Positions 7,146 through 20,111 of a stretch of 64,000 nucleotides of DNA are shown here, in pieces (within the stretch, counting starts at the first letter, position 1; each line of letters opens with the position of its first letter). The stretch covers positions 1,054,001-1,118,000 of the forward strand of contig NZ_MTQO01000054.1 of NCBI RefSeq assembly GCF_001984155.1. The letters are read 5' to 3'. Under the pieces are notes generated by a model. It searched no databases and was not told the DNA's origin. It saw nothing but the letters and a program-made list of their open reading frames with translations. The DNA is from Actinosynnema sp. ALI-1.44 (GTDB taxonomy: Bacteria; Actinomycetota; Actinomycetes; Mycobacteriales; Pseudonocardiaceae). Position numbers and translations under genes: made by a program.

Positions 7146-10100
7146 ATGGCACCCGATGCGGTGCACCGCACAGTCCTGATTGTGGACGTGGAGAGGTTCA
7201 GCGGGCGGAAGAACCCGGAGCAAAGGAAAGCACGCGCCGCCGTCTACGCGGCCCTGGCGCATGCTCTGGGGGCGCACTGGGGCGCGTGCCACAGCGAAGA
7301 CCGGGGTGACGGGGTGTTCATCCTGGCACCGGCGGATGTTCCGAAGCAGTTCTTCGTGGAGCAGGTGCCCGGTCGCCTGGTGGAAGCGCTGAACGGACAC
7401 AACCGGGTACACGCGGCCGGTGAGCAGATCCGGCTGAGGATGGCGGTGCACGCGGGGGAGGTCCTGCTCGACGAGCACGGTGCGACCGGCGTCGCGATCA
7501 ACCACACATTCAGGTTGCTCGACGCGTCGCCGTTGAAGGATGCCCTCGCCGGGTCCGTCGGTGTGCTCGCGGTGATCACCTCCGACTGGTTCTTCCGTGA
7601 AGTGGTCTGGCACAGCGCCGCGGACGAGACTCGCTATCGCCACAAGCACTTCACGGTCAAGGAAACCGAGGCGGTCGGATGGATCTGCCTGCCGGACGAC
7701 CCCTACCCGCCCGACGCGAACCAGGCGGAGCGGTCGCGGGACGTCCACCCGTATCCCGGCCTGCGTGCGTTCCAACCCGACCAAGCGCGTTGGTTCTTCG
7801 GCCGCGAGACGGACCTGTCGGTGCTGATGGACAAGATCGACCACCGCACCGGGCCGGTCTTCGTCGTCGCCCCATCCGGTGTTGGCAAGTCGTCACTGCT
7901 GCGGGCCGGTGTGATACCCGCGGTGGCCGACAGCGAACGTCAGTGGTTGTTGCTGACCCCGGCAAAGGAGCCCTGCGAGGCGCTGGCGCAACAGGTCGCG
8001 CACCTGGTCGGTGACAGCGCGGCCGACGTCCTCTCGGCAGTCCGGTCCGATCCCGCCCGGCTGGCGGGCATGGTGCCTGACGGGACTGTCATCGTGATGG
8101 ACCAGTTCGAAGAGGTGTTCACCCTGTGCGCCGACGAGGCCGAGCGGCGGTGTTTCATCACCGCAGTGGTCGCGACGCGTGCGGTTCTCGGGGTGCGGGG
8201 CGACTGCTACAACCACTGCCTCGCTGACGATCAGCTCGCGCCGTTCCTGCCCGCGAGCCAGTTCAACCTCCAGGCGATGACTCCGGCCGGGTTGCGGGAA
8301 GCCATCGAGCGGCCGGCTCTGCAGATCGGCGTCGCCGTCGAGCCGGGACTGGTCGAGGTCCTCCTGCACGAGATCGGGACGGATGCCGGACAGTTGCCGC
8401 TGCTGGCTCACGCGTTGGCCGTCACCTGGCAGCAGCGCACGGGCGACAAGCTGACCGTGGCGGACTACGGCCGGACCGGGCGGATCCAGGGCGCGATCAT
8501 GACCACCGCGGACGAGGCATACGCGCGGTGTTCCACGGCCGAACAACGCGCGATCTTCCAGCACATCCTCTTGCACCTGGTCGTGGTCAGGCCCGATGCG
8601 CAGCCCGCCAGGCGGCGCGCGGATCCGGCCGACCTCGTCAAGGGGTTCGACGATCGGCGGACCGCCGAGACGGTGCTCGGCTGGCTGATCGAGAAACGCC
8701 TGGTGACGTTGGACGACAACGCCATCGAGCTCTCCCACGAAGTACTGCTGCGGGAGTGGCCCCAGCTCGGCACCTGGATCGACGCGGGCCGCAACGACCA
8801 GGTCATCCGGCAGCAGTTGATCGAGGCCGCCGACCAGTGGGAAAGAGAGGGCAACCCGGTCGGATCGCTGTATCGCGGCGATCGGCTGGCCATCGCAAGG
8901 CAGTGGCGGTCGAGGACCGAGCACCGCGCTGCTCTCACGCCGCTCGGGCAGGCGTTTCTCAGCGCGTCCACCCGGTACGAAAGCCGCAGGGCCAGACTTC
9001 GCCGGACCGCGGTCGCCATGCTGGCGGCGCTTGGCCTCGTCGCGTCCGGTGCCGCTGTCTACGCCTTCGAGCAAAGCGACATCGCCCACGAGCAACGTGA
9101 CGCGGCGATCTTCAACAAGGTCACCGCTGAGGCGAACCGGACACGGTCCATCGACGCGTCGCTGGCGGCTCAGCTCGATCTCGTCGCCCACCGCATGCGC
9201 CCGGCCGATCCGGACACCCGCACCCACCTGGTCGTCGACGCGAACGCGCCGTTGTCCACCACGTTGCCCAGCAGCAAGATCGTCAACGCGCTGGCGCTCA
9301 GTCCCGACGGGCAAACGTTGGTCACCGGCGGCGACGACCGGACCGTGCGGTTGTGGAACGTCGCCGACCCGGCACACCCGCTGCTGCTGAACGAAAGCAC
9401 CAGCAACGGCCAAGTGCTCCAAGCGGTGGCGTTCAGCCCGGACGGGCAAACGTTGGCCACTGGCGGCGATGATCGGACCGTGCGGTTGTGGAACGTCGCC
9501 GATCCAGCTCGCCCCGAGGTTCTCGGTCAGCCGATGGGGGGACACACCAAGACGATCCGGTCGGTGGCGTTCAGTCCTGATGGCCGGACGCTGGCCACCG
9601 GTGGCGATGATCGGACCGTGCGGCTGTGGAACGTCACCAACCTCGCCCAGCCCACGACACTCGGCCCACCGATGGCCGGGCACACCGGGACCGTGGGTTC
9701 GGTGGCGTTCAGTCCTGATGGCCGGACGCTGGCCACCGGTGGCGATGATCGGACCGTGCGGCTGTGGGACATCACCGCGCCGAACCACGCCGGTCCCACC
9801 AGGCCACCATTGACCGAACACACCGGGGCCGTCTACTCGGTGGCGTTCAGCCCTGATGGCCGCACGCTGGCCACTGGCGGCGATGATCGGACTGTGCGGT
9901 TGTGGAACGTCGCCGATCCAGCTCGCCCCGAGGTCCTTGGCCGACCGATCACCGGGCACACCATCACGATCCGGTCGGTGGCGTTCGGTCCCGGCGGACA
10001 CACGCTGGCCACTGGCGGCGACGACCAGACTGTGCGGTTGTGGAACGTCGCCAACCCAGCCCGCCCGGCGCCTCTCGGCCCGCCGTTGACCGGACATGCC

Positions 10101-10859
10101 GACGACATCCGGTCGATGGCGTTCAGCCCGGACGGGCGCATCCTGGCCACCGGCGGCGACACGAAGGACGAGAACACCGCGCGGTTGTGGAACATCGCCG
10201 ACCCGGCCAAACCCACGCCGCTGACCCAGATCGTGATCGGACGGGACGCCAACGTCCTGGCCATGGCCTTCAGTCCGGACGGGAGGACTTTGGCCACGGG
10301 TACCGAATACAGCGACGCCGCGGTGTGGTTGTGGAACGTCACCGACCCCACCAAGCCCACACTGCGGGCCGGACCCCTCACCGGGCATGGGGACGACATC
10401 CACCGGGTCGCGTTCAGCCCGGACGGGCGGACACTGGCCAGTGGCAGTCGTGACCAGCAAGTCCGGCTATGGGACGTCACCGACCTCGCTTCTCCCGGAC
10501 TCCTCGGCGAACCCCTTGTCGGCCACATGAACCCCGTCTTGTGGGTGGCGTTCAGCCCGGATGGGAAGACGTTGGCCAGCGGCAGCGGCGACAACACTGT
10601 GCTGCTCTGGCAGCCGGAAGACCGGACGCGTCCGGGTCAACCGCTCACCGGGCACCAGGCCGACGTCAACACGGTGGCGTTCAGCCCGGACGGCGCCACC
10701 CTCGCCACCGGCAGCGACGATCACACCGTGCGGCTGTGGGACATGAACGTGCCCCAAGCCATCCAAAGCATCTGCGCCATCACGGGGGACACGCTCACTC
10801 GCGAGATGTGGGACAAGTTCGTGTCCACGGAGCTGCCGTACCGCCCGCCGTGTTCGTGA
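7146..10859 (+). CDS. Nucleotidyl-cyclase-like / STAND NTPase / WD40 signalling protein
   Basis: About 1237 residues; ATG 7146 follows GGGGGAGG. Domains in order: a class III nucleotidyl-cyclase-like domain (about 5-175) keeping candidate metal aspartates in LIVDVERFSG and EDRGDGVFIL plus RMAVHAGEV and GVAINHTFRLLDAS; the HPYPGLRAF entry motif; a STAND NTPase with Walker A APSGVGKSSLLRAG (about 242) and Walker B VIVMDQFEEVF (about 314); a winged-helix region; a membrane span (AVAMLAALGLVASGAAVYAF, about 622-641); then eleven WD40 repeats (about 712-1205) and a Cys-ending tail (YRPPCS). STAND proteins of this type are switch-like sensors often linked to conflict or cell-death responses. The ligand, and whether the cyclase-like domain is active, are unknown. 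It converges on a chaperone operon. Confidence 0.9.
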   Translation: MAPDAVHRTVLIVDVERFSGRKNPEQRKARAAVYAALAHALGAHWGACHSEDRGDGVFILAPADVPKQFFVEQVPGRLVEALNGHNRVHAAGEQIRLRMAVHAGEVLLDEHGATGVAINHTFRLLDASPLKDALAGSVGVLAVITSDWFFREVVWHSAADETRYRHKHFTVKETEAVGWICLPDDPYPPDANQAERSRDVHPYPGLRAFQPDQARWFFGRETDLSVLMDKIDHRTGPVFVVAPSGVGKSSLLRAGVIPAVADSERQWLLLTPAKEPCEALAQQVAHLVGDSAADVLSAVRSDPARLAGMVPDGTVIVMDQFEEVFTLCADEAERRCFITAVVATRAVLGVRGDCYNHCLADDQLAPFLPASQFNLQAMTPAGLREAIERPALQIGVAVEPGLVEVLLHEIGTDAGQLPLLAHALAVTWQQRTGDKLTVADYGRTGRIQGAIMTTADEAYARCSTAEQRAIFQHILLHLVVVRPDAQPARRRADPADLVKGFDDRRTAETVLGWLIEKRLVTLDDNAIELSHEVLLREWPQLGTWIDAGRNDQVIRQQLIEAADQWEREGNPVGSLYRGDRLAIARQWRSRTEHRAALTPLGQAFLSASTRYESRRARLRRTAVAMLAALGLVASGAAVYAFEQSDIAHEQRDAAIFNKVTAEANRTRSIDASLAAQLDLVAHRMRPADPDTRTHLVVDANAPLSTTLPSSKIVNALALSPDGQTLVTGGDDRTVRLWNVADPAHPLLLNESTSNGQVLQAVAFSPDGQTLATGGDDRTVRLWNVADPARPEVLGQPMGGHTKTIRSVAFSPDGRTLATGGDDRTVRLWNVTNLAQPTTLGPPMAGHTGTVGSVAFSPDGRTLATGGDDRTVRLWDITAPNHAGPTRPPLTEHTGAVYSVAFSPDGRTLATGGDDRTVRLWNVADPARPEVLGRPITGHTITIRSVAFGPGGHTLATGGDDQTVRLWNVANPARPAPLGPPLTGHADDIRSMAFSPDGRILATGGDTKDENTARLWNIADPAKPTPLTQIVIGRDANVLAMAFSPDGRTLATGTEYSDAAVWLWNVTDPTKPTLRAGPLTGHGDDIHRVAFSPDGRTLASGSRDQQVRLWDVTDLASPGLLGEPLVGHMNPVLWVAFSPDGKTLASGSGDNTVLLWQPEDRTRPGQPLTGHQADVNTVAFSPDGATLATGSDDHTVRLWDMNVPQAIQSICAITGDTLTREMWDKFVSTELPYRPPCS
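9561..9767 (+). repeat. Identical 69-bp DNA repeats inside the WD40 array
   Basis: Bases 9561-9629 and 9699-9767 are identical and 138 bp (46 codons) apart, which is one WD40 repeat unit. Neighbouring units at about 9421-9500 and 9837-9912 are nearly identical to them. The identity includes synonymous positions, so it reflects recent duplication or gene conversion. Confidence 0.9.
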
Positions 10860-14702: not shown

Positions 14703-14872
14703 GTTACCAGCCGCGAGTGCGCCATTCGTCGATGTACGTCTTCCTCGCCCAGAATCGAGTCGTCGCCGCGGCCTGGGTAGAACCAGGTGTCATCAAGCAG
14801 CGCGTCGAATAGTCGCGACCGCATGTCGTTGATCAGCGACTCGAAATCTGAAGAGGAGGTGGTGCGGCCGAT
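14703..14872 (-). pseudogene. Displaced 3' fragment of the MBL-fold hydrolase gene, copy A
   Basis: On the minus strand this reads SSDFESLINDMRSRLFDALL then DDTWFYPGRGDDSILGE, matching residues about 174-225 of the intact hydrolase at 19434-20111. The metal-binding histidine of YPGHGDD is changed to Arg. A one-base shift near the end hides an otherwise preserved HIDEWRTRGW-stop ending. There is no 5' part of the gene. It is the most decayed of three such fragments and ends at the hydrolase stop codon, like the other copies. Confidence 0.85.
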
Positions 14873-14888
14873 GTCAACGCGTCCCGCA

Positions 14889-14928
14889 AAGCAGACATGC
14901 CCCGCCGTTTGGCGGGGCATGTCTGCTT
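14889..14928 (-). terminator. Strong hairpin terminator of cspA
   Basis: Perfect 18-bp stem (AAGCAGACATGCCCCGCC and its complement) with a GTTT loop, 9 bases beyond the cspA stop codon on the minus strand. Confidence 0.85.
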
Positions 14929-14937
14929 GATCCTCGT

Positions 14938-15141
14938 TCAGATCAGGGTGACGCTGGTGGCCTGCGGGCCCTTCTGGCCCTGGCCGACGTCGAAGCGCAC
15001 GCGCTGGTTCTCCTCGAGCGACTTGAAACCGCCGCCCTGGATCTCTGAGTAGTGCACGAACACGTCGGCGCTACCGTCCTCGGGGGCGATGAAGCCGAAG
15101 CCCTTCTCGGAGTTGAACCACTTCACGGTGCCTTCTGCCAT
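14938..15141 (-). CDS. cspA: Cold-shock domain protein
   Basis: 67 residues. It carries both RNA-binding motifs, KGFGFI (RNP1) and VFVHYSEI (RNP2-type), in the standard single OB-fold chain starting [27 protein letters not shown] precedes ATG 15141. It binds single-stranded RNA/DNA as an RNA chaperone. A leader of more than 150 bases separates it from the next feature, typical for genes controlled at RNA level. Here it lies alone between copies A and B of the truncated MBL gene, so it may be cargo of an integrated segment rather than the ancestral chromosomal copy. Confidence 0.95.
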
Positions 15142-15325
15142 GTTGTCTCCTTGTACAGCGGTTACGGCACGCCACTGATGCGACGAACCGGGCCTGTCTG
15201 CGACGGGGACCTTCTCCGGTCGAAACCCGGAGGAAATACGCATTGCCCGCAAACAAAGGTTTCGCGAGCGCGTACTGAAAACACGAACCTAAAACCTAGG
15301 ACCACTGAGAAGTGTAGCACACCGA

Positions 15326-15353
15326 CGGGGGCTCCTGCGTCAGGCAGCCCCCG
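15326..15353. terminator. GC-rich hairpin next to repeat B
   Basis: CGGGGGCT-CCTG / CAGG-C-AGCCCCCG with a CGT loop and one bulged base, 14 bases beyond the downstream end of the truncated MBL copy B. It probably terminated transcripts leaving that fragment on the minus strand, ahead of the cspA leader. Confidence 0.45.
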
Positions 15354-15366
15354 CCAGGTGAAAGTT

Positions 15367-15573
15367 CGCCAGCCGCGCCCGCGCCACTCACTGAGCCGCG
15401 GGCGCTGTTCGCCCAAGGTCGAGTCGTCGCCGTGGCCGGGGTAGAACCACGTGTCGTCCGGCAGGACGTCGAACCGTCGAGAGGGACGTCGTCAGTGAGC
15501 GACTTGAAGTTCTCGGGCGCGGTGGTTTTGCCCACGCCGCTGGGAACAGAGTATCGCGTCAGCGGTGAACAGA
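15367..15573 (-). pseudogene. Displaced 3' fragment of the MBL-fold hydrolase gene, copy B
   Basis: The minus strand reads GVGKTTAPENFKSLTDDV, then after a small deletion that shifts frame, RFDVLPDDTWFYPGHGDDST and LGEQRPRLSEWRGRGW. These correspond to residues about 160-225 of the intact gene at 19434. The stop codon is lost (CGA in place of TAA). Its promoter-proximal edge (15542-15567) is identical over 26 bases to the same edge of copy C (17229-17254) but differs from the intact gene, so B and C share an origin. Confidence 0.85.
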
Positions 15574-15578
15574 CTCAG

Positions 15579-16373
15579 TCATCGATGCCCGGCTTCCCAG
15601 AGGGCAGCGATGGGAAGAGACAAGAGCCGTTCTCCGAAGTGGACGCTTCCTCGCTTGCCCGTGTGCAGAACGATGCCCTGGCGGAACTGGTCGCCGACCT
15701 GGTCGCGTAGTGCCGCGAGACCCTGGAAGTCGTCGGCGGTGACTGTGTCTCCTGCCTTGGACTCGATCCCGACGATCTGACCGTCCTCTCGTTCGAGGAC
15801 GACGTCCACTTCTGCTCCACCACTGATTCTCCAATGGTGCAGGCGGACTTGTGCCTCGCTCCAAGTGGCCTGCTTGGCGAGTTCGTTGACGATGAACGTT
15901 TCCACGAGTGCGCCACGCGGGGGCGAGACGGGCTTGGCTAGTGATTCCGGCGAGATGCCCAGTAGCGAGGTCGCCAGCCCGGTGTCGGTGAGGTGCACTT
16001 TGGCGTGTTTCACGATCCTTGCGGTCGGATTGCGGGACCATGCTGGAAGCCGGTGTATCAGAAACACCGCTTCCAGTAGTTCCAGATAGCGGTTCACGGT
16101 CGTACGGTGCAGGCCTGTTTTGTTCGAGGTATGGACGCTGTTGTGCTCCTGCGCCGTGATGGAAGCAAGGTAGGACAGGAGCGTGGTGATGGCGCTGGGC
16201 TCGTTGAGTCTCGTCATCTCGCGGATGTCTCGTTCCGCGATTGCACGCACGTAGCTACGGAACCAGGTCCGACGAGCCCTGGCACTGTGCATGAGGGCAG
16301 GCTCGGGAAATCCACCACGGCAGATGCGTTCGAAGTAGCCGGCACGATCCACTTGCGACGGTGAGAACAGCAG
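15579..16373 (-). pseudogene. 5'-truncated DUF4143 ATPase (AAA_14 domain missing)
   Basis: About 265 residues matching the C-terminal two thirds of AAA_14/DUF4143 proteins. It has a GGFPEP motif, the HTH-like stretch SNKTGLHRTTVNRYLELLEA with VFLIHRLPAW, LTDTGLATSLLGI, GALVETFIVNEL and the nuclease-like strand set GGAEVDVVLE, IVGIESKAGD. The N-terminal P-loop domain with Walker A, about 130-150 residues in intact relatives, is absent. The frame upstream of about 16373 is unrelated. The ATPase is therefore broken, and the cut coincides with the end of the truncated gene at 16426-17007. The 3' end lies 6 bases from copy B. Confidence 0.8.
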
Positions 16374-16425
16374 TGTGGACCGACACCTTGCAGTATGTTG
16401 GACCGACATCTGACAGGATGATCCA

Positions 16426-17007
16426 TCAACATTTGAGCACAACGATGAGACCGATCTGGGGCACCTCGTCATCCTGATCCGGCGCAGCCGGGGTATGCAT
16501 CCTGAGCGTCTCGGATGCCTTGGGTTCCCGTGGCGGTGACGGCCTCACGAGGAGGGACAAGCGGATCTGAGTATCCAGCGTGACGTTGCGGAAGTACGGA
16601 AAGGTCGCTATTCCGTGACTGGTCAGATCTCTCTCGATCCGGCGGGTGATCCTGGTTCCCCTGGTCCGCGCATTCCAGTGCCGCAACAGTTCTCTCACGG
16701 TGAGTACCACGGTCTCGCCTGCTCGCAGCGATGCGTCGACATCGGTCAAGAACTGATTCGCCTCGACCGAATCGACGATCTCCTCCGAAGTGTCCTGCAA
16801 CTCGGAACGCAGCGACGCGAGAATCCGACCGGCGCTGGTTCGCCAGCACGTCCAGCCGTTCACCTGGGTGTCGGTCACTGCCCTCGCCGCGTCAGACGGT
16901 GTGGATCTGCTGATTCTCCAATGGGTCCCCCGCCACCGAACCGAGTCTGGAGTTCGATGGCGGGCGTCAAAGCTTGCTGGGAGCGATTCACTCGAGCGGG
17001 TGCGCAC
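16426..17007 (-). pseudogene. 3'-truncated gene with RAMA/DUF4357-like and winged-helix-like domains
   Basis: The frame reads WRISRSTPSDAARAVTDTQV then NGWTCWRTSAGRILASLRSE, which resembles the RAMA/DUF4357 module (aa-rich helix, NGW-x-W, terminal LR). A winged-helix-like segment follows: LTVRELLRHWNARTRGTRIT, RRIERDLTSHGIATFPYFRN, VTLDTQIRL. In proteins I recall with this second domain, a segment near PQIGL leads into CBS domains; here it ends at VLKC-stop. Both this 3' end and the missing 5' end of the DUF4143 gene fall at about 16375-16430, so one deletion probably removed both. The first 25 residues are not convincing. The family call is from memory of motifs. Confidence 0.5.
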
Positions 17008-17048
17008 ACGGTGTGCTCGTCAGGGGCGAGACGCTCCCGGGTTGTTCA

Positions 17049-17261
17049 GTTCACCAGCCGCGCTCACGCCATTCATCGATGTGTGGCTTCTGTTCGCCCA
17101 GCGTCGAGTCGTCGCCGTGGCCCGGGTAGAACCAGGTGTCGTCTGGCAACGCGTCGAACAGCCGCTCGGCGACGTCGTCCGTCAAAGACTTGAAGTCCTC
17201 GGGGGAGTTGGTCTTGCCCACGCCGCCCGGGAACAGAGTATCGCGTCAGCGGTGCACAGGC
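17049..17261 (-). pseudogene. Displaced 3' fragment of the MBL-fold hydrolase gene, copy C
   Basis: Minus strand: DTLFPGGVGKTNSPEDFKSL, TDDVAERLFDALPDDTWFYP, GHGDDSTLGEQKPHIDEWRE and RGW-stop. This is an undamaged frame matching residues about 163-225 of the intact hydrolase including its stop codon. Only the upstream part of the gene is missing; an in-frame stop and an extra two bases precede DTLF. It is the best preserved of the three fragments and the one closest to the intact gene. Confidence 0.88.
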
Positions 17262-17700
17262 GGAGCGATACGGCTCACAACGACTCTTGAGGTGCTCATG
17301 GCCGTGTGACCGCATGACCGTCGGCAGGTGGTGCCTCTTGACTCCTCCGGACTGATGCTGAGTAGAGCAGATCCTCGACGCTCGCGGCGGCGATCAAGAG
17401 GATGACGATCCTACGTCGTGGTTGCTCATGGCGGTGATAGCCAGCGGACATCGTCCGTAGGCCTGTCCCGTAGCCCTCAACGTTTGTGGCATTCAGCAAC
17501 ACCGTACAGGCAGTATTCGCTCGTGCTCATCCAGTCATGCAACGATTCCACTGGAGGTGACGCTATGTAGAAGAATGAATCAAATTCGAGACAATTTTAG
17601 GCCTTGATACAAGTTCTGGTCTCAATCGCGTCTCGACTAGGTTAAGTCCACGCTAGTTGGTGGGCTGTATGGGTGAATTCGCGTCTCGTCTGAAACAATA
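17262..17700. other. AT-richer intergenic stretch upstream of the dGTPase
   Basis: No convincing gene. Base composition falls toward AT from about 17560 (runs such as AATTTTAGG). A strong Shine-Dalgarno (GGAGGTGA, 17553-17560) is followed by ATG-TAG at 17565-17570, a start directly followed by a stop. The small palindrome AGGATGACGATCCT lies near 17400. The promoter of the dGTPase is probably here, but no clear -35/-10 pair stands out. Confidence 0.5.
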
Positions 17701-17748
17701 ATGGCGATCCTTGCGACTCTTGGTTACCTGCGCAGACTCGGCAGATAG
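17701..17748 (+). CDS. Possible 15-codon leader peptide of the dGTPase
   Basis: ATG 17701 to TAG 17746-17748 encodes MAILATLGYLRRLGR. No strong Shine-Dalgarno precedes it. Its first codons are exactly the arm that can pair with the ribosome binding site of the next gene, the arrangement found in translational attenuators. Confidence 0.3.
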   Translation: MAILATLGYLRRLGR

Positions 17749-17784
17749 TCGCAGCTTCTTCGCAAGATGGACGAGGATCGCCAT
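17701..17784 (+). promoter_or_regulatory. Predicted RBS-sequestering hairpin before the dGTPase
   Basis: ATGGCGATCCT (17701-17711) is the exact complement of AGGATCGCCAT (17774-17784), which contains part of the GAGG Shine-Dalgarno and the ATG start of the dGTPase. TGCGA (17712-17716) and TCGCA (17760-17764) extend the stem after a 9-base bulge. Translation of the leader ORF would melt the 5' arm. Confidence 0.45.
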
Positions 17785-19312
17785 GGCCAAACCTGCTCGG
17801 ACGCAACCAGTGCATGAACTAGTGCGCCTAACGCCCAAAAGTGCACGTAGAGACGCCCGGCTGATTCAGCCAGCGCGACCTCGAAGCCCTCATGACACGC
17901 GTTCGGAAGCACGTAGAGATCGAGATCGTGTGTTGTATTCTGTCGCTTGGCGACGTCTCGGCGGGGTAACGCAAGTCGTTACTCCGTTCGAGGACATGGC
18001 TTTGATGCATAACCGTCTTACGCATTCGGAGAAAGTTGCCCAAGTGGCAAGGAGTATTGCGGAACGTCTCTTGTTTCAAGAAAAGTCACATCGCCTGATC
18101 GCTCACCTCGGAGGAATAGATGTAGATGTAGTTGAAGCTGCGGCGTTGGCACATGATCTCGGGCATCCCCCTTTCGGGCATATCGGTGAGATTACTCTCG
18201 ATAAAGTTGCTCGCGGTAGCCTGCTGCGCTTGTCGGATGGATTTGAGGGTAATGCGCAGACCTTCAGGTCTGTTCTCTTGGGTGAAACGCGCAGTGCTGC
18301 CTATGATGGGCTCGATCTTACATGTGCGACCCTGCTCGCTATTGCCAAGTATCCATGGGTAAGGGAGTCGACTCTTAAAGATGACCACGATGCGCGGTTG
18401 AAGACTAATACAGACTATCGGAGACGGTGGCGAAAATTCAGCGTGTACCGCTCCGAGAAAAACTCATTCACTAGGGCGCGGGCATTCCTTGATGAAGTGA
18501 GGTCATTTCGACCAGAAACGCAGTCGCTTGAGGCTTCGATCATGGATGTCGCAGACGACATCACATATGCAATCCATGATCTAGAAGATTTCTATCTGGC
18601 GGGAATTCTGGATGTGCGAGCAGTGTTAGACGAATTGCGGAGAAATGAGCAAGATAGTTTGTTGCGCAAACTCCGTGCCAGGCTCAAGCTCGACTATCCA
18701 GATTACTATAGACGCGCACTTTTTGACAGGGCGGTGATGGTTGTTCAAAAAGAGCTGCGGTCTTCGTTCGCGACAAAGTACGACGGTGGTCTCACTACCG
18801 TGGGTCGTGCGCGGGCGGCAGGGTCAAAGTTGATCGGCAAGTACATCAACAGTGTGCACATCAGTGAAGACGTCTTCTGGACGCATGGTCCTTATGTCGC
18901 ATTGAAGTCTCCGCAGTGGCATGAGGTTCAACTGTTGAAGGAAATTACTAAGAACTTTGTTATAACGCGTCCCGATATTGCATTGCTACAGCGCGGGCAA
19001 CAGCGTATTCTGCGAGAACTGGTCCAGTATCTCTTGGAATGGAAAGACTCAAAGAGTGACTTCAAACGCCTGCCGCGTCGTCTGCGTGAAGAAATTATCA
19101 TTGCCCAAAATGGTCATGGAAGAATAGATTCGACGCGAGCCTACGGGGATCTGCTCCGTGTTCGCGGAAATGGTGGATTTGCTCCACGTGGTGACGCTAA
19201 TAGGTGTATTCTGGACTATTTGTGTACGCTCACTGACGGTCAGTGTTATGCGCTCTATTATAAGCTGTCTGGATCTCGTCCGGCAGCCTCTGCGATGGAC
19301 TTCTTCCTCTGA
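17783..19312 (+). CDS. dGTPase-type HD-domain phosphohydrolase
   Basis: 509 residues. HD metal motif: His in RLTHSEKVAQVARSIAERL (about residue 80), His-Asp in AALAHDLGHPPFGHIGE (about 125) and the distal Asp in DVADDITYAIHDLEDFY (about 256). The spacing and the HDLGHPPFGH signature are those of Dgt/SAMHD1-like enzymes, which hydrolyse dGTP or other dNTPs to nucleoside and triphosphate. ATG 17783 follows ACGAGGATC; an upstream TTG frame exists but is not protein-like. Codons such as ATT, AAA and GAT are far more common than in the neighbours, which suggests recent transfer. Enzymes of this family act in dNTP homeostasis and, in several bacteria, in phage defence; which applies here is not shown. 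Confidence 0.88.
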   Translation: MAKPARTQPVHELVRLTPKSARRDARLIQPARPRSPHDTRSEARRDRDRVLYSVAWRRLGGVTQVVTPFEDMALMHNRLTHSEKVAQVARSIAERLLFQEKSHRLIAHLGGIDVDVVEAAALAHDLGHPPFGHIGEITLDKVARGSLLRLSDGFEGNAQTFRSVLLGETRSAAYDGLDLTCATLLAIAKYPWVRESTLKDDHDARLKTNTDYRRRWRKFSVYRSEKNSFTRARAFLDEVRSFRPETQSLEASIMDVADDITYAIHDLEDFYLAGILDVRAVLDELRRNEQDSLLRKLRARLKLDYPDYYRRALFDRAVMVVQKELRSSFATKYDGGLTTVGRARAAGSKLIGKYINSVHISEDVFWTHGPYVALKSPQWHEVQLLKEITKNFVITRPDIALLQRGQQRILRELVQYLLEWKDSKSDFKRLPRRLREEIIIAQNGHGRIDSTRAYGDLLRVRGNGGFAPRGDANRCILDYLCTLTDGQCYALYYKLSGSRPAASAMDFFL

Positions 19313-19433
19313 TAGCGCAGGAACTGTTCATTGAGCTTTTGTCGCATAGGGATGTGTCGCGTGCGCTGCGCTTCGCGCTCAGTGCGTGCGGTGGAGCCTC
19401 CGCGGTGAATGCGAAAGCTCCAGGCACGTTTGG

Positions 19434-20111
19434 TTACCAGCCGCGGGAACGCCATTCCTCGACGTGAGGCTTCTGTTCGCCGAGGGTCGAGTCGTCGCCG
19501 TGGCCGGGGTAGAACCACGTGTCGTCCGGGAGTACGTCGAACAGCCGCGACGAAACGTCATCAACCAGTGAAGCGAAGTCCTCGGGCGACGTGGTCTTGC
19601 CCACGCCGCCGGGGAACAAGGAGTCGCCGGTCCACAGGTGCGGGTGGCCGTGGGGGTCTCGGTAGAGCAGGGCGATCGAGCCCGGGGTGTGGCCTCGCAG
19701 GTGGATGACCTCCAGGGTGCACTCGCCGACCTCGATCGTGTCGCCGTGTTTCACGAGCACGTCAGGGGGTACTGGTAGGGGGTCGGCATCGAGGGCGTGG
19801 GCGACTGTGTTCGCGCCGTTCGCTCCTGCGATGGCTCCGAGGGCCTGCCAGTGGTCGGGGTGTTGGTGTGTTGTCACGATCGTTCGCAGCCGTGGCCTGT
19901 TTCGATCGTGTCCGATGAGGTCTTCGATCCGCTCCGGATCGTTCGCCGCGTCGATCAACAGCGCGTCCCTGGTGGCGTTGCAGACCAGGAGGTATGCGTT
20001 GTTGTCCATCGGCCCGACGGACAGCTTGTTTATCGTCAGCTTCTCGAGCGTGCGCCTGGCGGCCGCACCGCCTGGATCCACATGACCCGTGTAGTTCTCG
20101 ACAACGTCCAC
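19434..20111 (-). CDS. MBL-fold metallo-hydrolase (intact copy)
   Basis: 225 residues with a complete glyoxalase II-like metal site: THQHPDHWQA (H82, H84, D86, H87), RGHTPGS (H141), TGDSLFPGG (D163) and YPGHGDDSTLG (H204). GTG start at 20111. The substrate is probably a thioester or lactone, not predictable in detail. Bases 19432-19638, coding for residues about 158-225 plus the stop codon, recur three times downstream at 17049, 15367 and 14703 in the same orientation without the rest of the gene. The 3' end thus looks like an integration target restored by each incoming element. Confidence 0.92.
   Translation of the reverse strand: MDVVENYTGHVDPGGAAARRTLEKLTINKLSVGPMDNNAYLLVCNATRDALLIDAANDPERIEDLIGHDRNRPRLRTIVTTHQHPDHWQALGAIAGANGANTVAHALDADPLPVPPDVLVKHGDTIEVGECTLEVIHLRGHTPGSIALLYRDPHGHPHLWTGDSLFPGGVGKTTSPEDFASLVDDVSSRLFDVLPDDTWFYPGHGDDSTLGEQKPHVEEWRSRGW

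Follow-up and report, generated by a model that had tools for sequence, protein, structure and literature searches.

The closest described counterparts of the locus reported here are integrative mobilizable elements (IMEs), which carry a relaxase and integrate site-specifically, and cis-mobilizable elements (CIMEs), in which decay has spared the attachment (att) sites; the two accrete in tandem (PMC5704250). For IMEs that use site-specific serine recombinases, integration has been observed to interrupt dispensable genes (Guedon et al. 2017, PMC5704250). Here, we analyze a stretch of 64,000 nucleotides from Actinosynnema sp. ALI-1.44 (contig NZ_MTQO01000054.1, positions 1,054,001 to 1,118,000; henceforth termed the window), in which the 3′ end of a gene for a metallo-β-lactamase (MBL)-fold hydrolase recurs in tandem with other genes between the copies. 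In our judgement, the end of this gene is very probably the bacterial attachment site of a lineage of serine-integrase IMEs, with the window holding an integrase-less array at that site. Site-specific integration, decay that keeps att sites, tandem accretion and a relaxase-bearing element are shared with the systems of PMC5704250. Unlike the IMEs described there, MBL elements carry a coding replacement of 60 codons, and unlike the CIMEs, segments at the MBL gene are often single toxin-antitoxin modules.

The staphylococcal cassette chromosome (SCC) SCCmec and the Enterococcus cassette chromosome at rlmH likewise combine large serine recombinases, a target in the 3′ region of a conserved gene, direct att repeats and highly variable cargo (PMC6222049). 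SCC elements employ a ccrAB pair at rlmH, whereas a single integrase lies at the junctions of the MBL site, and the MBL elements differ further in exchanging a coding end of ~180 bp and in carrying a relaxase. Accretion of actinomycete integrative and conjugative elements (AICEs) in Streptomyces (PMC9513070) is similar in that elements and remnants of actinomycetes are stacked at one site, but the example there concerns a tRNA-Arg gene, and AICEs are defined by an integrase, Rep and TraB. A catalogue of large serine recombinases (Durrant et al. 2022, PMC10083194) contains integrases that target single genes, including conserved coding sites such as that of a prolyl isomerase. The word "lactamase" is absent from the main text of PMC9513070, as are "lactamase" and "hydrolase" from that of PMC10083194, whose supplementary tables may list the pair.

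A sequence-only reading of the window had supposed that the MBL gene is not a described integration hotspot, and we found no description of the site in searches of open PMC text exclusive of supplements. Integrons and integrase-less attC clusters form arrays of small one- or two-gene cassettes that are rich in toxin-antitoxin modules and often lack the recombinase. Unlike integrons, MBL arrays use a serine recombinase, have attR-type half-gene separators in place of attC and carry cargo in either orientation; each separator is composed of a P arm, which derives from the element, plus the MBL coding end. The kind of system is known from CIME accretion and SCC-type elements; the new aspects are its location in an MBL gene, a serine-integrase element that exchanges a coding end, and segments reduced to the size of cassettes.

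Integrase-bearing elements and the end of the MBL gene

In four relatives (G027, G142, G286 and G192; genomes are denoted by G numbers), 19–30 kb separate the intact MBL gene from the first displaced copy of its end, and each of these intervals encodes a serine recombinase of ~490–510 aa that is transcribed away from the junction. A profile of the four integrases retrieved close relatives (>780 bits) from 7 of 297 genomes of the family Pseudonocardiaceae, with at most five candidates scored per genome and the next best match at 285 bits. All seven start −6 to 20 bp from the P arm of a copy, the negative distances (G142, G192) reflecting uncertain start codons and degenerate copies, and none of the 12 more distant integrase loci of the family lies beside an MBL end. 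Resolvase and Recombinase domains scored above cut-off in all five integrases scanned (G027, G142, G286, G123, G212), and a zinc ribbon was matched in the G027 integrase only, below cut-off (22.9 of 25.3 bits). The enzyme belongs to the large serine integrases. A MobA-type relaxase (Pfam Relaxase) is present in each of the elements of the same five genomes, MobC in all three elements scanned for it (G027, G286, G212), and the relaxase of the G192 element is recognized by similarity only. The relatives' elements carry their own integrase and relaxase and are bounded by att repeats, features expected of an integrative mobilizable element.

Gene order shows insertions of such elements after the MBL gene in two genera. 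A gene for a 966-aa protein lies 38.8 kb after the MBL gene in G286 vs 8.06, 8.10 and 8.84 kb in its congeners G107, G157 and G230, and in Lentzea a gene for a 217-aa family protein lies 31.0 and 34.4 kb after it in G123 and G212 vs 3.2 and 2.9 kb in G051 and G229. Searched at the level of the order, with at most four candidates scored per genome, 2 of 10 integrase loci adjoin an MBL end (G411 and G575, in two other families). These integrases are more distant (429 and 346 bits); in G411 the intact gene lies 10.7 kb upstream and the P arm differs, and G575 has no intact MBL gene within the 59.7 kb examined. Since distant integrases abut an MBL end in two other families, the site is used more widely and with other P arms, which suggests that several integrase lineages converge on the MBL gene.

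An element that brings its own gene end should leave chimeric intact genes in integrase-bearing genomes, and chimerism is what we found. Between pairs of integrase-bearing genomes, the intact genes share 0.785 identity in the 5′ part and 0.843 in the 3′ part (n=15, six genomes); between integrase-bearing and other genomes the values are 0.789 and 0.723 (n=138), and between pairs of other genomes 0.789 and 0.791 (n=253). G229 was left out because part of its MBL gene reads N; with it, integrase-bearing vs other genomes give 0.791 and 0.714 (n=144), and other pairs 0.788 and 0.773 (n=276). All six integrase-bearing genomes share an element-type arm, GGTGGTCCTGGGCGGACAACAA or a variant of it. Displaced ends mostly resemble the host's relatives more than intact ends do: compared with G109, the intact end of G142 is 0.71 identical, its displaced ends 0.89, 0.90 and 0.87, and the degenerate one beside the integrase 0.66. 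As judged from these identities, the elements supply their own last 60 MBL codons and displace those of the host. Among full-length displaced copies, 26 of 44 keep the reading frame, and 58% of the differences among the frame-keeping copies fall at third codon positions, as among intact genes; this bias is consistent with the copies having been coding until they were displaced.

Predicted attachment sites and proposed route of integration

In tblastn searches with residues 158–225, intact genes align from residue 158 and most displaced copies from residues 161–167, starts beyond 167 marking partial copies. Where the 5′ edge of a copy survives, the copy starts with codon 166, and before it stands an arm resembling TGTTCACCGCTGNNGYGATNCNCTG, where intact genes have TGTTCACCGGCGACTC.CTG or a close variant. 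The outer edge of this arm is sharp, with ≤0.5 bit upstream of position −25 and 1.3 at −25, in a profile of 30 of 44 copies whose filter required CACC in the arm and so inflated those four positions. With positions numbered from the TT of the Phe codon (+1/+2), the element arms give the highest scores for the motif TGTTNNCCGC at −25 (P; 7.17 of 8, n=29) and +27 (P′; 7.83, n=6), and the host arms at −20 (B; 6.43, n=28) and +22 (B′; 5.41, n=29 displaced plus 22 intact ends), over a background of 2.1–2.7. The attP and attB pairs therefore have one shared centre and differ by 5 bp per side. For a Listeria integrase, attP has been shown to carry the zinc-domain motif 5 bp farther out than attB does (PMC3783163), and the offset in the sites predicted here matches this published signature of large serine integrase sites.

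On this basis, the predicted attB of the window spans 42 bp (19595..19636, minus strand; B motif at −20, B′ motif at +22), with a predicted crossover TT at 19616-19615 that forms the first two bases of the Phe166 codon. Predicted attR (P-B′) sites lie at copy C (17212..17258, minus strand), as placed by arm alignment and motif positions, and at copy B (15525..15571, minus strand), as placed by arm alignment with the B′ type assigned by eye; indels in copy B put its arm out of register in the arm classification. Among intact genes of genomes without the integrase, 22 of 23 have a B′-type arm, and 40 of 54 displaced ends are B′-type with none clearly P′-type. Because no displaced end is clearly P′-type, the small cassettes appear to be bounded by attR-type sites only, and by the site architecture autonomous elements leave B-P′ at the gene.

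We propose the following route. The elements, 19–30 kb long and equipped with an integrase of ~490–510 aa, a MobA-type relaxase and a MobC-like protein, would integrate by recombination between a 52-bp attP and the 42-bp attB, each of which has the TT of the Phe166 codon as its centre. As the P′ arm is itself the coding 60-codon MBL end, integration would keep the gene whole but chimeric (attL = B-P′), and the host's old end would come to lie beyond the element, following its P arm (attR = P-B′). Exit of the element would restore attB, and segments that had lost or never had an integrase would stay behind, each bounded by P-B′ sites; repeated insertion would build the array, newest beside the gene. 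Since insertion leaves attL, arrays of P-B′ sites need the later exit of the autonomous element or another route that restores B′. Small cassettes would travel only with an autonomous element, whose attL could recombine with any distal attR: in the simplest canonical route, they would be carried along on excision, integrated elsewhere and left there when the autonomous element later departs alone. Recombination itself, the crossover base, the restoration of attB and this hitch-hiking we infer from the sites and their arrangement.

According to the sequence-only reading, the 3′ end of the gene is a serial integration site, at which each insertion restores the gene and displaces its old end. Serial integration is borne out by the integrase-bearing elements, the chimeric genes, the synteny in two genera and the same-genus relative G093 described below. 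Displacement of old ends likewise holds, but the gene would not be restored to its former state, as an autonomous insertion leaves attL (B-P′) and not attB. We also considered regeneration of attB at each insertion and rejected it: over 30 nt, element and host arms are 0.55 identical, as compared with 0.89 and 0.75 within the two classes.

The array in the window

The integration target in the window is an intact MBL-fold hydrolase gene (19434..20111, minus strand) with an open frame of 225 aa and a Pfam Lactamase_B match of 50 bits, of which codons 166–225 form the exchangeable end. This gene has exactly four matches in the whole genome (11.7 Mb, 54 contigs), each of them inside the window and all oriented alike. 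A combined copy-plus-arm profile identifies these as the gene's own end, D (19434-19628), and the displaced copies C, B and A, whose aligned parts are 79–84% identical to the gene. Copy C (17051..17256, minus strand) keeps the 25-bp P arm, frame and stop codon; copy B (15367..15570, minus strand) keeps the P arm and has a 1-nt deletion and no stop; copy A (14704..14879, minus strand) has lost the arm according to the profile, is frameshifted by a 2-nt deletion and, in the alignment of the four ends, shows GGCCAC changed to GGCCGC, His to Arg within a P-G-H-G motif. Copy A is probably the oldest of the displaced ends.

The sequence-only reading had recognized these four ends, the differing states of C, B and A and the lack of any 5′ part in the displaced copies, and our searches agree on all three: 5′ gene sequence occurs only at the intact gene in the regions searched. 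It had also noted an inner edge shared by B and C (15542-15567 and 17229-17254) and missing from the gene. This edge is real (97% over 31 nt) and indeed absent from the gene, and can now be described more exactly as the greater part of the conserved 25-bp left arm together with the initial bases of the core; it recurs in many genomes and is the attP half-site of the element. Its further claim that decay grows with distance from the gene fits the window and fails in relatives, where an intact frame was kept by 11/21, 6/10, 3/6, 1/2, 2/2 and 1/1 full-length displaced copies at ordinals one to six, and by 2/2 further copies whose intact gene lies outside the sequence stretch examined; 25 of 28 intact MBL genes passed the same test. 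As it had stated, the window holds no integrase, and the best match in the rest of the genome (63.5 bits) is unrelated and on another contig. The window presents segments with att sites and without integration genes, in tandem at the target, as a CIME accretion array does, with P arms kept at C and B.

The state before the younger insertions can be read from G093, a relative of the same genus, in which cspA follows the intact MBL gene at 223 bp. In the window, a block of the G093 type (0.93 identity over 496 bp) starts directly after copy B, and cspA (14938..15141, minus strand; CSD 108.6 bits) lies 225 bp beyond. The 220 bp after B score 360 against the G093 block; those after D, C or A score 68–90 (0.64–0.66 identity), as compared with a mean of 74 and a maximum of 100 for shuffled sequence. 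As the cspA block follows the gene in G093 and copy B here, the dGTPase and DUF4357/DUF4143 segments were inserted between the gene and B, its former end, and cspA was the MBL neighbour before. These comparisons show G093 in the pre-insertion state. In G093, an arm remnant with four mismatches survives after cspA.

The cargo of the first segment, between D and C, is a gene for a dGTPase-like HD phosphohydrolase (17711..19312, plus strand; Pfam HD and HD_assoc, PADLOC dGTPase 276.5 bits) with a GC content of 0.51 from 17930 on. The second segment holds two remnants on the minus strand: a DUF4357/RAMA-like fragment (16426..16878; both Pfam matches weak and below cut-off), which clusters with a 452-aa protein of G126, and a DUF4143 protein without an N-terminal AAA domain (15579..16472; 140 bits), whose relatives are longer (416–445 aa; the one scanned combines AAA_14 and DUF4143). 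Each of the two genes (15579-16878) is shorter than its relatives at the point where they meet, and the pair possibly represents two cassettes fused by deletion of an intervening copy. Read from the gene outward, the window would comprise attB, the dGTPase cassette, attR-C, the broken DUF4357/DUF4143 cassette, attR-B, the ancestral cspA block and the eroded copy A, as expected of an array that an autonomous element has left. A homologue of the window's 1237-aa protein (7146-10859) sits between MBL copies in the array of G065, so the region past copy A may belong to an older array or to a region shared with it.

Spread, cargo and rival explanations

Searched across the family, the same MBL gene is followed in relatives by arrays, other cargo and integrase-bearing elements; the sequence-only reading had named other cargo and integrase-bearing elements as observations that would support it. 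Copy C as query matched 290 of 297 family genomes (two candidates scored per genome); among the matches listed, at least a dozen genomes have two on the same strand 1–25 kb apart. Of 32 sequences, including the window and two 8-kb named loci, 29 contain one or more truncated copies according to a profile that joins arm and end, a figure that is no prevalence because most of the sequences were chosen for their hits. The array of G065 contains nine truncated copies, two of them weak. A strict arm pattern (≤3 mismatches) occurs in 24 of the 297 family genomes, in 7 of 46 genera, its reversed control giving no hits in these genomes; 37 of 38 hits coincide with an MBL copy, namely both of those in the window and 35 of 36 elsewhere, and with the exception, G022, set aside, 23 genomes of 6 genera hold. 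Within the window's own genus, 6 of 8 genomes have the arm at ≤2 mismatches. A degenerate arm pattern applied to 84,980 species matched 15 stretches in 13 species, all Pseudonocardiaceae (Actinophytocola, Kutzneria, Amycolatopsis, Kibdelosporangium, Actinocrispum, Lentzea and Solihabitans) and all at an MBL copy, one of them partial.

The arm pattern had no match in IMG/VR, where one protein locus matches the MBL end. The 60-residue end matches 21 records in phage and 44 in plasmid collections, and the single such record inspected has no array. Mycobacterium phages Larva, Psycho, Kratio and their relatives encode an MBL-type hydrolase (gene 37 or 38) whose C-terminal 60 residues are 55–58% identical to those of the window's gene, which may reflect capture of a host gene.

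Between copies, we delimited 65 segments with a median of 1,568 bp; 38 are shorter than 2 kb, one of them an artefact of unread sequence in G229, and 7 exceed 18 kb. Segments of less than 8 kb number 56 and encode 114 proteins in 48 clusters, as predicted by a simple gene caller. The largest clusters are a Phd antitoxin (22 in 18 genomes), its PIN partner (21 in 17) and DUF4143 proteins (10 in 9); a shorter PIN-like partner has no Pfam match. The Phd-PIN cassette measures 773 bp in G065, G051 and G229 and 766, 772 and 786 bp in G123, G163 and G157, its partner gene being cut short in the 786-bp version. PADLOC models were matched, some weakly, by 15 of 19 proteins scanned, among them the window's dGTPase, Wadjet genes in G142 and G114, DISARM genes in G212, AbiEii in G142 and, in the G027 element, a type I methylase and an Orf5-type protein. 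Cargo orientation within arrays is mixed. In G163, phage-tail-like genes, recognized by eye, lie just beyond the last copy of an array of seven ends (L037:2263-10293). G147 has a 21-kb inter-copy segment with metabolic and regulatory genes, likewise by eye (C1, 5197.5-5218.6 kb; L042, L043), and no close integrase according to the family-wide profile search.

Several observations weigh against an integrase-specific attachment site with hitch-hiking cassettes. B′ is the weakest motif position (5.41 of 8 vs a next best of 4.17), and as the motif was first read from P and P′, the test consists of the shift in B and B′ only. One intact gene (G114) is a tie in arm type, and 14 of 54 displaced ends, the window's B and A among them, could not be assigned to B′ or P′ type because of degeneration or a shift in register. 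The relatives examined closely were mostly selected by having hits, and the copy adjoining the integrase is degenerate in G142 and G192. Copy B is not the copy closest to the gene end of G093 (0.80, compared with 0.84 for D and 0.82 for C), which decay or later exchange could explain, and the DnaJ/HSP70 flank of the window is unmatched at the expected place in the fetched regions of relatives. The similarity of cargo does not follow that of the adjoining MBL end in three clusters (rho −0.18 to 0.05), and a five-pair cluster gives 0.95 and 0.63; by toxin-antitoxin subfamily, rho is −0.16/−0.19 (10 pairs) and 0.34/0.49 (15 pairs), the latter, Phd-92, reaching 0.66 with host similarity. Mobility as such, that is circles, excision and transfer, we infer from sequence.

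The alternative that survives best, possible yet doubtful in our view, is that the small cassettes are mobile by themselves, with P-B′ circles joining attB through an integrase supplied in trans, much as integron cassettes are captured. The near-equal lengths of Phd-PIN cassettes in three genera (766–786 bp), mostly 41–50 bp from both boundaries, would fit, as would the abundance of segments under 2 kb and the DUF4143 genes of G034, G087 and G142, which are 87–93% identical among genomes whose MBL 5′ ends reach at most ~81%. However, P-B′ represents a hybrid of the attR type, and serine integrases act on no pairings other than the canonical ones (PMC3783163). The missing link between cargo and adjoining MBL end also counts against independent cassettes, and the Phd-92 cassettes partly track the host tree (rho 0.66, 15 pairs).

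Far less probable is that ordinary tandem duplication or unequal homologous recombination built the arrays with no site-specific recombinase. The ends share 180 bp of homology on which RecA could act, and some end exchanges may have arisen in this way, but duplication as the source of the arrays is contradicted by the constant breakpoint and the conserved non-gene arm in many genomes, the integrase at the junction in seven of seven cases, the confinement of 5′ gene sequence to the intact gene in the regions searched and the element-type ends recognizable across genera. Least likely of all is a tyrosine-integrase or integron-type (IntI/attC) array, which the small, toxin-antitoxin-rich cassettes of one or two genes would recall through their likeness to superintegrons, but the junction enzyme combines Resolvase and Recombinase domains, cargo orientation is mixed, and a crude motif scan of the 32 sequences, whose motifs initially missed the serine integrases as well, detected no tyrosine recombinase.

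With a serine-integrase attachment site as the preferred reading, the MBL locus represents a hotspot for anti-phage and toxin-antitoxin cargo at a conserved gene, whose homologue in Streptomyces clavuligerus is found close to uvrA, and does so in a family with antibiotic producers among its members. The 25-bp arm offers an easy marker for finding such cassettes, and an integrase with attP and attB predicted at base resolution provides testable integration tools for actinomycetes that are hard to engineer. The arrays would be a natural case of serine-integrase accretion that keeps its target gene whole by exchanging the coding end. Tentatively, the system might even be viewed as a serine-integrase counterpart of the integron, in which the chromosomal MBL gene serves as anchor and one-sided attR sites as tags, lone toxin-antitoxin or defence modules are taken up, stacked and passed between genera, and the functional host enzyme has its last quarter, probably with a metal ligand in it, replaced whenever an autonomous element integrates.

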